Source of the DNA: Aquibaculum arenosum
GTDB lineage: Bacteria; Pseudomonadota; Alphaproteobacteria; Kiloniellales; DSM-21159
DNA length: 64,000 nucleotides
Direction: 5' to 3'
NCBI RefSeq assembly: GCF_029222965.1
Contig: NZ_JARHUD010000006.1
Coordinates: 62,001-126,000 of the forward strand
Shown here one piece after another: positions 38,977 to 43,594 of the stretch (position 1 is the stretch's first letter; every line of letters starts with the position of its first letter). Both the position numbers and the translations under genes were made by a program. The notes beneath the pieces were generated by a model. That model was given only the letters and a program-made list of their open reading frames with translations, had not been told where the DNA came from and did no database searches.

Positions 38977-39918
38977 ATGGTAGGCGTAGCAGTTCGGCAG
39001 CGGCAAGTGCGTGAAGAGGCACAGCCGTGCCCAAAGATGTGGTGGATCGATGACCGGGGGCGATGGAATCCCCTCGGCGAAGCCGCAGAGAGCGAGGCAA
39101 CGGGGGGACACAACACGGTCCTGGACACCCCGCTCGGCCGGGACATGATGTACCGCCATTTCGGCATGCTGCGCCTGGAGGAAACGAGCCACCGCATCGT
39201 CGTAAGCTGGGACATCCGCCACGTCTGCGAAGCAGCCCTCAATGAGGCCTGCAATTATCTGCGCCAGGTGCGCGTTCCGGTACTCCTGCGGTTCTGCTTC
39301 GTCGGCTGGCATGAGGAGCTTCATGCCAAAGGGGGCAGCGCCCTGGACCGCATGCGCTGGACCCGTGCCTACAGCGGTGTCACGCCCCTGCCCCGCCCCA
39401 GCATTCTGCAGCGGTCGCTTTCCGAAGCGATGAACACACACAACGGCTTCAGCTTGCTGCTCAAAGGGCTTCAGGACAGCGACGGCTATCTCACAGCGGA
39501 GCTGCGTGCGGAATTTGAGTGCCGTGGCCTGATGGACAAGCTGGTCCTCTTTGCCGAGGAGGATGCCAATCTCCTCTTTTCTCACATCGGTGCGAACTCG
39601 GCCTTGCGGCAGGTCTTCGGCGAAGCCTGGGCTGCCGAGGCCAAGGGACGCCCTTACGATTTCGCGCCCTGCGCCGACGGTCTGCTGCGGCGCGTCTGGG
39701 ATCCCTACAAGCCAACTCTGGAATCGGCACAGCCGCGCTTCGACCACGTGAGAACGCTGATCTCCCCGCCACAAGGAGAAAGCCATTGGGTCACCTACAA
39801 GCGACTGCTCGTGCCCTATCGCCAGCCCGGTCAGGGGCGTGGCCTGGCGCTGCTGTCGCGCCTGACCCGCGCGGTCGCCATCCCCTTCATGGACCCGCAT
39901 CGCGTGACATGGAGTTGA
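38977..39918 (+). CDS. Protein of unknown function (possible sensory/regulatory)
   Basis: A 313-residue soluble protein that I do not recognise. GGGGGGAG is close to the ATG at 38977; ATG 39037 (MWWIDDRG) is an alternative. It contains a conserved-looking N-terminal block (LGRDMMYRHFGMLRLEE, VVSWDIRHVCEAALNEACNYL), a central LRFCFVGWHEELHAK, and a C-terminal LVPYRQPGQGRGLALLSRL, reminiscent of PAS-like attachments in Rhodospirillales proteins but not assignable. No signal peptide or membrane segment is seen. It precedes the STAND-type regulator on the same strand by 220 bases. Confidence 0.7.
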   Translation: MVGVAVRQRQVREEAQPCPKMWWIDDRGRWNPLGEAAESEATGGHNTVLDTPLGRDMMYRHFGMLRLEETSHRIVVSWDIRHVCEAALNEACNYLRQVRVPVLLRFCFVGWHEELHAKGGSALDRMRWTRAYSGVTPLPRPSILQRSLSEAMNTHNGFSLLLKGLQDSDGYLTAELRAEFECRGLMDKLVLFAEEDANLLFSHIGANSALRQVFGEAWAAEAKGRPYDFAPCADGLLRRVWDPYKPTLESAQPRFDHVRTLISPPQGESHWVTYKRLLVPYRQPGQGRGLALLSRLTRAVAIPFMDPHRVTWS

Positions 39919-40138: not shown

Positions 40139-42097
40139 GTGCGCACGATCCGCGACCGCCTGCTACGAAACAGCCATCACGGCATGGTCGGACGGGAGCG
40201 CGAGCAGGACGCGCTGCTGCGCTGCCTGGACGGGGACGCCCCCATCGTTACTCATGTGCATGGCATGTCGGGCATCGGCAAGACCACGCTTCTGCGGAAC
40301 CTGGCCGAGCAAGCGACCAGTGCCGCGAACGAGAGCGTCCTTTTGGACGGCACAGCGATCGAGCCCACAGCCACAGGACTGCTGCACAGCCTCTCCGAAG
40401 CGCTCGGCCAGTCGGTTCTGTCTCCCCTGGAAGCCCGCAGGGTCTTGGCCGGACGTGGGCATCCGGTTCTCCTGATCCTCGACCACTACGAAAATCTCAG
40501 CCTGCTCGACACCTGGCTGCGCCAGGCGCTGCTGCCGGCACTCCCCGCGAGCGCGCGCCTGGTGCTCGCAAGCCGCCTTCCTCCCAATCCATCCTGGCTG
40601 ATGGATCCGGACTGGCACGGCCTGTTTCGGGCGCTGCACCTGCGGCCGCTCGACGACGCGGCCGCACGCCAGCTGGTCGAACATGCCGGTGCGCCGCCAC
40701 ATGCCGCAGAAACGATCGTGCGGTTTGCCCACGGCCACCCGCTCGCTCTCACGATGGCAGCGACCCTGGCCCGCAGCGAAGGTCTGGACAGCGACGCCCC
40801 TCTGGAGCGCGTTCTCCATCAACTGTCGCGCCTCTACCTCGGTTCGGTGGAAGACTCCGAGCTGCGCGATGTCCTGCGCGCCAGTTCGGTCGTCCGTCGC
40901 ATTACGGTGCCCCTGATCGAGGCAGTCGCGCCCACTGCAGGCGGCCAGGCGCTTCTGGACCGCATTGCTCACCTCCCCTTCATCGATTCCGACCAAAGCG
41001 GTCTGTCGCTGCACGACGCCATCCGTGAAGCGATCGCCGCCGATTTCGAAGCCTGCAACCCAGAGGGCTTCCGCCAGGCCCGACGCGCTGCCTGGCGCCT
41101 GCTCCGGGAAGCAGCGGCCGGCACCCACGGGGGTGAACTGTGGCGATATACCGCTGATCTGATCTATCTGCTGCGCAACCCGGCTGTACGAGACGCATTC
41201 TTTCCGCGGGAATCCTCGTCGCTGGCGATAACCGAGGCACAGCCCGAACACGGGGCGGCGATCAAGGCTGTGGCGGGGGCCCATGAGCCGGCCGGCTGCC
41301 GCTCCGCCCTGGAGCGCCTGTGGGAGCGCGCACCCCAGACTTTTTCCGTGGTCCTGCAGCCGGAGCAAGAGGTTGCCGGATTCTATGTGATGTTCGATCC
41401 GGCGACCTTGCCGGAACCGTTGCTGCGAGATGATCCCATCACCGCGCGCTGGTGGAACCACCTTCGCGAAAACCGGCTGCCCCGCGGACAGTGCGCCCTG
41501 TTCCTGCGACGTTGGCTGAGCTGGCGGGACGGCGAACAGCCCTCGCCGGTGCAGGCGGCCGCCTGGCTCGACATCAAGCGCTGCTACATGGAGCAGCGCC
41601 CGCGGCTGCGCCGAGTCTACCTGACCCTGGCAGAGCCGGCGGCTTACAGTGCCGTTGCAACGCAGCTTGGCTTTCGCATGCTCCCGGAGTGCGCCGTGGA
41701 GTGCGAGGGCACCACCTTCCACACGGCAATGCTGGACATGGGGGCGGCGTCGGTGGATGGCTGGCTGTCCTGGCTCGTCGGCAAGGAACTGGGGGAAGAA
41801 GAGCAGGGGCTCCTGGATGTCACAGGACGCAGCCTGCGCGGTGAGGCCGGGCCGGTCCCCCTCACCCCGCTCGAGTTCGAGGTGATACGCTACCTCTGGG
41901 AACGTCCCGGCCAGGCGGTCGCGCGCGACGCTCTTCTGAATGACATCTGGGGGCGACACTTCAACGGCGGGAGCAACGTCGTCGATACCGTGGTGGCGTC
42001 CCTGCGTCGCAAGCTCGGCACGCGAGCCGCGCTGATTCGAACGGTGCGCGGCTACGGCTACGCCCTTCGAGAGGAGGAAAACGGCCAAGGCCGCTGA
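40139..42097 (+). CDS. STAND-like ATPase / GNAT-like / OmpR-type winged-helix regulator
   Basis: A 652-residue protein starting at GTG 40139 (GGGAG upstream). Residues ~15-330 form a STAND/AAA-type ATPase with Walker A GMSGIGKT (42-49) and Walker B LLILDHYE (D115). Residues ~410-545 resemble a GNAT fold (WLDIKRCYMEQRPRLRRVYL, ATQLGFRML). Residues ~573-644 are an OmpR/PhoB winged helix (LTPLEFEVIRYLWERPG ... IRTVRGYGYAL). It has no membrane segment or receiver domain, so it probably senses an intracellular signal. It is followed by direct repeats and the DUF1326/DUF2182 genes, which are its likely targets. Confidence 0.85.
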   Translation: MRTIRDRLLRNSHHGMVGREREQDALLRCLDGDAPIVTHVHGMSGIGKTTLLRNLAEQATSAANESVLLDGTAIEPTATGLLHSLSEALGQSVLSPLEARRVLAGRGHPVLLILDHYENLSLLDTWLRQALLPALPASARLVLASRLPPNPSWLMDPDWHGLFRALHLRPLDDAAARQLVEHAGAPPHAAETIVRFAHGHPLALTMAATLARSEGLDSDAPLERVLHQLSRLYLGSVEDSELRDVLRASSVVRRITVPLIEAVAPTAGGQALLDRIAHLPFIDSDQSGLSLHDAIREAIAADFEACNPEGFRQARRAAWRLLREAAAGTHGGELWRYTADLIYLLRNPAVRDAFFPRESSSLAITEAQPEHGAAIKAVAGAHEPAGCRSALERLWERAPQTFSVVLQPEQEVAGFYVMFDPATLPEPLLRDDPITARWWNHLRENRLPRGQCALFLRRWLSWRDGEQPSPVQAAAWLDIKRCYMEQRPRLRRVYLTLAEPAAYSAVATQLGFRMLPECAVECEGTTFHTAMLDMGAASVDGWLSWLVGKELGEEEQGLLDVTGRSLRGEAGPVPLTPLEFEVIRYLWERPGQAVARDALLNDIWGRHFNGGSNVVDTVVASLRRKLGTRAALIRTVRGYGYALREEENGQGR

Positions 42098-42121
42098 GCC
42101 TGCAGTCGCGGCACTCCCTCC

Positions 42122-42151
42122 CATGAAATTCTCATGCAGTCCTCATGCAGG
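42122..42151. promoter_or_regulatory. Direct repeats with 11-bp period upstream of the DUF1326 gene
   Basis: CATG occurs at 42122, 42133 and 42144, exactly 11 bp apart; the last two repeats are CTCATGCAG copies. OmpR/PhoB-type winged helices bind tandem sites with this period. An AAATAAG stretch just downstream could act as a -10 element. The repeats start 25 bases after the regulator stop and lie 58-87 bases upstream of the DUF1326 start. Confidence 0.6.
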
Positions 42152-42208
42152 CAAATAAGTCCGGGGTCACACTCTCACCCCAACCGCTTCAACACAGAGG
42201 AGGCTGTC

Positions 42209-42808
42209 ATGGCCAGTTGGAACCTTAAAGGATTCTACGCGGAAGCCTGCACCTGCGAAGGCGCCTGCCCTTGTGTCTACACCGAGAAGCCGACCGGCGG
42301 CACCTGCACCGGGCTGGTGGGCTGGCACATCGACGAAGGCGAGGACGGCGGCGTCCGGCTGGAAGACCTCAACGTCGCGCTCGCCCTCCACTCGCCCGGC
42401 CGTATGACGGATGGCAACTGGCGCGTGGCGCTCTATCTCGACGATCGTGCCGATGATCAACAGCGCGCGGCGCTGCAGCGCATCTTCTCCGGCGCGGCTG
42501 GCGGCCACCCTGCCAATTTATCCCCGCTGATCGGCGAGGTGACGGAGGTGACACCGGCGCGCATTCGCTTCGAGCAATCCGACCGGGGATGCCGCCTCGA
42601 CGTGGGTTCCGTGGCGGAAGCCGATTTGCAGGCGATCGAAGGACTCGATGGCGGCAAGGCCTCGATCAGCGGGCATCCACTCGCTGTGGCGCCGGGATTT
42701 CCGGCCACTGTCGCGAAGTCCAGCACCTTCAAGCTGCAGGCAGGTGACATCCGCTGCGACGTGACGGGCCGCACTGCCTTCTATTCACCCTTCGCCTACG
42801 AAGGCTGA
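42209..42808 (+). CDS. DUF1326 domain protein
   Basis: Starting at ATG 42209 (GAGGAGG five bases upstream), this 199-residue soluble protein opens with the DUF1326 signature WNLKGFYAEACTCEGACPCVYTEKPTGGTC, a cysteine-rich segment suited to metal or thiol chemistry, and continues with VALYLDDRADDQQ and PLIGEVTEV. Function is unknown. The four clustered Cys (CTCEGACPC) suggest metal binding by inference. It is adjacent to the DUF2182 membrane protein (three-base gap), a pairing common in proteobacteria, and probably co-transcribed under the upstream winged-helix protein. Confidence 0.88.
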   Translation: MASWNLKGFYAEACTCEGACPCVYTEKPTGGTCTGLVGWHIDEGEDGGVRLEDLNVALALHSPGRMTDGNWRVALYLDDRADDQQRAALQRIFSGAAGGHPANLSPLIGEVTEVTPARIRFEQSDRGCRLDVGSVAEADLQAIEGLDGGKASISGHPLAVAPGFPATVAKSSTFKLQAGDIRCDVTGRTAFYSPFAYEG

Positions 42809-42811
42809 ACC

Positions 42812-43594
42812 ATGGAACGCGAAGGAGGTATCCTGCGCACCAGCAGCCCCGCGACGCTCGCGGGGCTGCTGGCCGCCATCATGGTGGCCTGGGGCCTGGT
42901 TATGTGGCCAGCTATGACCATGCATACGGGCAGTATGCATTCGGGACTGGTCCACCTGATGATGCCGGGCACAGCCGTATGGACTCCCACGAACGTCGCG
43001 GCCGTGTTCGCAATGTGGTCCGTGATGATGGCGGCAATGATGCTGCCGGGCGCAGTGCCCATGGTGCTGCTGTACAGGCAGCTCGTGGCGCGACGGCAGC
43101 CCGAAGTGGCGCGGCGGCGGAGCATTCTCTTCACCAGCGCCTATCTTGTTGCCTGGGCCGGCTACAGCATTGCGGCCACTGGAATGCAGTGGGGTCTTCA
43201 GGCGGGCCTGGTTCTCTCCCCCATGGGCGTGCTCACCAGCCCCTGGGTGGCGGCAACGCTGCTGCTGACGGCCGGGGTCTATCAACTGACAGGGTTCAAG
43301 GACGCCTGTTTGACCAAATGTCGCTCGCCCTTCGGCTTCCTCATGTCCGCTTGGCGCGACGGCGACCGTGGCGCCATGCTGATGGGACTGAAGCATGGAA
43401 GCTGGTGCATCGGCTGCTGTTGGGCGCTGATGGTTCTCGCCTTCGTGGGCGGCACCATGAACCTGGCCTGGATGGCACTGCTGACCCTGTTGGTGACGGC
43501 GGAGAAGGTTGCCCCCTTTGGCGCGACCATCTCACGCTTCACTGGTATCCTGCTGATTGGTGGCGCAGCCTACTTTGTTCTGCTGGCCGTTTAG
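42812..43594 (+). CDS. DUF2182 Met/His/Cys-rich membrane protein
   Basis: A 260-residue polytopic protein with about six hydrophobic helices. Methionines and histidines are abundant early (MWPAMTMHTGSMHSGLVHLMMPG; MWSVMMAAMMLPG) and cysteines appear later (FKDACLTKCRSPFGF; GSWCIGCCWALM), a pattern suggesting metal, possibly copper, binding in the membrane. DUF2182 proteins are annotated only as predicted metal-binding membrane proteins. It lies three bases after the DUF1326 gene. A terminator follows downstream of the intergenic riboswitch. Confidence 0.88.
   Translation: MEREGGILRTSSPATLAGLLAAIMVAWGLVMWPAMTMHTGSMHSGLVHLMMPGTAVWTPTNVAAVFAMWSVMMAAMMLPGAVPMVLLYRQLVARRQPEVARRRSILFTSAYLVAWAGYSIAATGMQWGLQAGLVLSPMGVLTSPWVAATLLLTAGVYQLTGFKDACLTKCRSPFGFLMSAWRDGDRGAMLMGLKHGSWCIGCCWALMVLAFVGGTMNLAWMALLTLLVTAEKVAPFGATISRFTGILLIGGAAYFVLLAV

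Follow-up and report, generated by a model that had tools for sequence, protein, structure and literature searches.

The closest described counterparts of the locus reported here, a STAND-type regulator gene followed by a DUF1326 gene and a ppoB2-family gene at positions 40139-43594 of a 64,000-nucleotide stretch of Aquibaculum arenosum contig NZ_JARHUD010000006.1 (the window), are MalT, AfsR and the other large SARPs, the PhoB/PhoP-type response regulators and the PpoB2 protein of Marinomonas mediterranea. MalT, the STAND activator of the maltose regulon in Escherichia coli, carries a TPR-type sensor and a LuxR-type helix-turn-helix. Work on MalT describes STAND proteins as closed at rest on ADP and multimerising once inducer and ATP open them (PMC4381067). 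In Streptomyces, AfsR and the large SARPs combine an OmpR-type domain and a STAND-type NOD in one protein, with 11-bp direct repeats near the -35 (PMC10936776). Proteins of the OmpR family occupy 7-bp motifs set apart by 4-bp spacers in head-to-tail order, and can do so three in a row or as trimers (PMC4832192). Marinomonas PpoB2, founder of PF09948, transfers copper (PMC2855505).

The regulator of the window is quite probably a one-component, ligand-gated activator of the DUF1326-ppoB2 pair acting through an array of three repeats, and is best called a STAND activator with a GNAT-fold sensor. The locus comprises the following features:

40139..42097, + strand: STAND-GNAT-winged helix regulator gene, 652 aa with a GTG start (Pfam AAA_16/NACHT and Trans_reg_C)
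40187..40210, + strand: STAND hhGRExE-type motif (VGREREQD, residues 17-24), by family conservation
40244..40288, + strand: Walker A region (GMSGIGKT, residues 42-49), by family conservation
40466..40492, + strand: Walker B (VLLILDHYE), with D115 in 35/35 family rows
41210..41797, + strand: GNAT-fold middle domain (residues 358-553), the proposed sensor, by AlphaFold2 and structural matches
41804..42073, + strand: OmpR/PhoB-type winged helix (residues 556-645), by Pfam and PDB matches
42118..42150, + strand: predicted operator, three 11-bp direct repeats CTCCCATGAAA TTCTCATGCAG TCCTCATGCAG, by comparative conservation
42168..42173, + strand: predicted -10 hexamer CACACT, 17 bp past the array (weak, 3/6)
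42209..42808, + strand: Cys-rich DUF1326 gene (Pfam PF07040, 5e-51; ribosome-binding site GAGGAGG)
42812..43594, + strand: PF09948/PpoB2 membrane copper-chaperone-family gene (Pfam 1.8e-63, 214 bits, cut-off 28.7)

A sequence-only reading of the window had taken three CATG elements behind the regulator gene as the operator of its OmpR-type domain, in control of the two genes downstream. The positions (42122, 42133 and 42144) and the 11-bp spacing were confirmed, and the triple occurs once in 64 kb and in 0 of 100 shuffles; CATG, however, is just part of the repeat, because each of the three 11-bp units has a core of 7 bp (consensus TTCTCAT-N4). At up to 2 mismatches, the pattern of array plus promoter has a single match in the 3.49-Mb genome. 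A three-unit array was identified 5' of DUF1326 and oriented toward it in 17 of 17 regulator-linked loci, the middle unit being TYCTCAT in every one. Array scores, taken over the 200 bp upstream of DUF1326, were 16.3-21.8 with the regulator versus 10.6-15.9 in 29 alphaproteobacterial DUF1326 loci without it, from which the array is absent (99th percentile of shuffled sequence 15.6; Mann-Whitney p=1e-8). These comparisons support the repeats as a putative operator for the OmpR-type domain, and linkage and array together argue for control of the DUF1326-PpoB2 pair by the regulator.

The tandem pattern of 7-bp motif and 4-bp spacer (TTCTCAT-N4, three times) is conserved at 31 loci. Most of them present a -10-like hexamer 17 bp after the array, with TA at that offset in 22 of the 31; the observed enrichment is matched by 0 of 5000 shuffles, in the PpoB2 set and in the set with other targets alike. 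Over the -35 position, which is taken up by the last repeat, no -35-like hexamer is conserved. From its layout, the array and -10 are predicted to form a class II activator geometry. The motif length, the spacer and the tri-repeats are those of PhoB/PhoP-type response regulators (PMC4832192), which share the winged-helix fold but differ in having a receiver domain where this regulator has a STAND core and a GNAT fold. The 11-bp direct repeats near the -35 are also shared with AfsR, although the distance from the end of the repeats to the -10 is 8 bp for SARPs and 17 bp for the present array. A start of DUF1326 at 42134 was rejected: that ATG falls inside the operator, and the start at 42209 has GAGGAGG upstream.

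The N-terminus of the regulator matches AAA_16 (4e-9) and NACHT (1e-6) in Pfam, and both GMSGIGKT and D115 are present, in agreement with the Walker-type ATPase (42-49, D115) read in this polypeptide from the sequence. The STAND motifs are kept across 35 full-length family rows: R19 of the hhGRExE-type motif in 33/33 ungapped rows and E22 in 29/35; G42, G45 and G47 of Walker A in 35/35 and K48 in 34/35; and the GxP motif, present as GHP. The AlphaFold2 model of the full protein, built from a 39-row family alignment, had a pLDDT of 85.9 and a pTM of 0.77. By structure comparison its core matched MalT (8bob, Z 24.5, 322 residues aligned), APAF1 (3sfz, Z 22.2) and also plant NLR NB-ARC domains; as modelled, this core is an NBD-HD-WHD fold like that of MalT and APAF1. 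Trans_reg_C was identified at residues 572-643 (6e-20), and the winged helix matches PDB response-regulator DNA-binding domains (GlnR domain 8hml, Z 14.5). Its recognition helix, SNVVD...LRRKL, is conserved in the family alongside the operator. The receiver domain is absent from the 652 residues both by Pfam and in the model, as the early reading of an OmpR/PhoB-type winged helix without receiver had it. No match to the locus was given by PADLOC, and a role in anti-phage defence was rejected on that result.

In its core, its C-terminal DNA-binding domain and an inferred ligand-triggered multimerisation the regulator resembles MalT, from which it differs in its GNAT fold, its OmpR-type winged helix and its predicted target of 11-bp repeats. 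With AfsR it shares the joining of an OmpR-type domain to a STAND NOD; in AfsR, however, the SARP domain, in which a BTA domain follows the OmpR-type one, lies ahead of the NOD, and TPRs are present, whereas here the winged helix is C-terminal and Pfam gave no BTA or TPR match, and a GNAT fold is not described for AfsR or the SARPs. Neither the STAND architecture with GNAT fold and OmpR-type domain nor its operator was found described in the open-licence literature; the novelty of architecture and operator is provisional because the search covered these papers only.

The GNAT-like middle proposed from the sequence proved right, since 50 of 50 PDB matches among those listed for this domain were GNAT or acyltransferase structures (Z 11.6-13.8); a structure prediction without a GNAT-like middle had been named beforehand as a refutation, and the prediction came out the other way. 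Pfam leaves this region unassigned. Modelled alone (residues 356-556), the domain had an AlphaFold2 pLDDT of 94.6. The best match was the N-acyl amino acid synthase FeeM (2g0b; Z 13.8, tied with many other GNATs; root-mean-square deviation 3.5 over 173 residues). It shares the fold with FeeM but is only 12% identical to it and would more likely sense than catalyse.

The two genes downstream encode proteins rich in potential metal ligands. Pfam today lists the former DUF2182 (PF09948) as PpoB2, copper chaperone. Among the regulator-linked copies the invariant residues of PpoB2 are M68, M72, M73, M76, M77, C166, C170, C199, C202, C203, M207, M216 and M221, and those of DUF1326, in 16 copies, are C14, C16, C20, C22, C33, H100 and H156. 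No PDB relative of DUF1326 was identified by sequence. The metal handling suggested for the pair at the outset is supported by these invariant Cys, Met and His residues and by the family name; from them and from the Marinomonas protein, the metal would by analogy be copper. The M. mediterranea PpoB2 is a membrane protein of the same Pfam family (COG5486) with the same invariant Met/Cys character; its gene adjoins a tyrosinase gene (PMC2855505), whereas the partner here is DUF1326. Tyrosinase as the target enzyme was rejected, none being found in the genome, although the search controls likewise gave no match.

A single-sequence search of genome contigs found no relative of the regulator. With a two-row alignment as the query, 40 loci were recovered, spread over Alpha-, Beta- and Gammaproteobacteria, Chloroflexota, Actinomycetota, Acidobacteriota and others. 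With the window and L007 added, and L070 removed as apparently the same locus as L007, the family sample comprises 41 loci; it was drawn by two peptide patterns, does not cover the family exhaustively, and its members are not independent of one another. A relative from another genus of the same family is 48% identical and has the same three genes and repeats. The regulator family is rare, identified in 2 of 61 genomes of the order and in 3 of 398 of the phylum (one partial), and the full regulator is present only in the A. arenosum genome among 385 of the class. It adjoins DUF1326 and PpoB2 in 17 of the 41 loci, a strong genomic co-occurrence, the lack of which had been named as a refutation of the proposal. 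The layout is tandem in 3 alphaproteobacterial loci and divergent in 14 gamma- and betaproteobacterial ones, and in the tree the linked regulators fall into two separate, well-supported clades. Near-identical regulators were identified at L049, L052 and L058, from metagenome-assembled genomes labelled Verrucomicrobia, Dehalococcoidia and Chloroflexi, either by recent transfer or by mis-binning.

Beyond what had been read from the window, the family is spread over several phyla and its array also precedes other genes. Over 18 regulator-carrying genomes the array pattern gave 27 matches versus 3 for a reversed control. Aquisalimonas and Amphritea contain one regulator each, and in both a second, perfect operator precedes a truncated-globin gene (L112:2162-2533 and L113:2464-2985) at a great distance from the genome's single regulator gene; a Paraferrimonas relative adjoins a globin gene. 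The A. arenosum genome has a truncated globin too, with no operator match reported there. Beside other relatives the array precedes genes for YdhR-type monooxygenases, Rv2258c-like or other methyltransferases, tautomerases or cupins. At L049 the target reading is uncertain, there being no open reading frame of at least 60 aa after the array, and at L060, where no array was found, the regulator adjoins a nitroreductase gene. Second sites of low strength were left uncounted, for example the one in L115 ahead of a 2-hydroxyacid dehydrogenase gene. It is rather likely that these proteins form a widespread and undescribed family of ligand-gated STAND activators with a GNAT-fold sensor, in which a near-unchanged operator (three TTCTCAT-N4, 17 bp, -10) is kept across phyla while the targets (copper-chaperone pair, truncated globin, YdhR-type monooxygenase, methyltransferases, tautomerase) are swapped, that is, a portable switch for one class of intracellular metabolite.

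The proposed mechanism starts from the domain architecture, the operator and its orientation, the spacing to the -10-like element and the strict linkage to the regulator, as given by sequence, fold and comparison. At rest the MalT/APAF1-like core would be closed, with ADP bound. A small ligand from within the cell would bind the GNAT-fold domain, where the ligand site is presumed to lie and which would substitute for the usual STAND repeat sensor; its binding would open the core, let ATP replace ADP and promote self-association, a nucleotide switch suggested by analogy with MalT. The C-terminal winged helices would then occupy the three repeats at 42118-42150 head to tail. Since the -35 region lies partly under the last repeat, polymerase would be recruited by the activator to the -10 near 42168, which would turn on DUF1326-ppoB2, whose products would bind copper or another thiophilic metal and deliver it to a target in the cell envelope. 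As to the signal, the sequence-only reading had offered an intracellular ligand or an acyl/metal state. The metal state is disfavoured, and direct metal sensing is not indicated by the sequences, because the residues of the regulator invariant family-wide include zero Cys, zero Met and a single near-invariant His, and many relatives adjoin enzymes not concerned with metals. An acyl signal is a possibility.

Activation is suggested by the geometry, and a site overlapping the -35 can also repress, so that an apo form on the same array might block the promoter until ligand releases it, the last repeat indeed covering that position. Such repression is unlikely: the missing -35-like hexamer is what would be expected if an activator replaces the -35, a constant 17 bp between array and -10 would fit contact with polymerase, and the multimerisation of STAND proteins on induction (PMC4381067) favours binding in the induced state. 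Slightly less probable still is a working acyltransferase in place of the ligand sensor, modifying the regulator, the chaperone or RNA polymerase. The GNAT fold is complete, with an LGF signature in its C-terminal half and the invariant polar residues D432, K480, R481 and Y483; the acetyl-CoA pyrophosphate loop RxxGxG/A, in turn, is degenerate: only a minority among the 39 members has it exact at the expected place, most have GExPS instead, and 0 of the 39 match a Pfam acetyltransferase model, for which reasons sensing is more likely than catalysis for the modelled domain. Inheritance of the neighbourhood by chance, with repeats unrelated to the regulator, would be favoured by the finding of the loci by homology, which makes the samples non-independent, but is exceedingly improbable given the two gene arrangements, the two separate clades, the occurrence of this array ahead of unrelated genes in other phyla and its absence from the 29 DUF1326 loci without the regulator.

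The DUF1326-PpoB2 pair might handle nickel, zinc or silver, or serve a redox or nitric-oxide response, with copper being incidental; the operators before truncated-globin genes in two genomes, the globin neighbour in a third, the monooxygenase, nitroreductase, tautomerase and methyltransferase neighbours or targets, and a DUF1326 family itself without assigned function would all fit. This alternative is nonetheless less likely than copper, the metal that the founder of PF09948 transfers in Marinomonas (PMC2855505) and that, as Cu(I), would fit the invariant set rich in Met and Cys. Several observations count against a ligand-gated activator of a copper-handling pair: the predicted -10, CACACT, is a weak one, and L007 carries CAGGCT; no tyrosinase was found in the genome, by a search whose controls gave no match either; and among 30 sampled alphaproteobacterial DUF1326 loci the regulator is present only at the one in the window. 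DUF1326-PpoB2 thus usually occurs without the regulator, and its copper role does not need it.

Under the activator reading, the DUF1326 and PpoB2 families gain a dedicated predicted regulator, operator and promoter, through which their physiological trigger can be searched for directly. A non-repeat sensor of GNAT fold is added to the STAND class, which includes the NLR immune receptors, in a compact protein of 652 aa suited to structural work. The near-invariant operator predicts regulons wherever the regulator occurs across phyla, and could serve as a clean reporter for finding the ligand.

Upstream of the regulator the window contains an open reading frame of 313 aa (38977-39918) with no Pfam or NCBIfam match. 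Several relatives depart from the common domain order. In an Aminicenantes protein (L046:1005-3578) a protein kinase domain (PF00069, 9e-47) replaces the winged helix, which makes the STAND-GNAT core a module that is combined with further outputs. From Rhodococcus and Nostoc, ATP-binding proteins carried on plasmids (L121 and L122) align to the STAND core and to a large part of the middle domain, with no winged-helix match. A second, partial relative was identified in a Geodermatophilus genome (G445:C33:352577-354184), and the relative at L111:1180-3243, in genome G633, carries an OmpR-type winged helix at its N-terminus, ahead of the STAND core.

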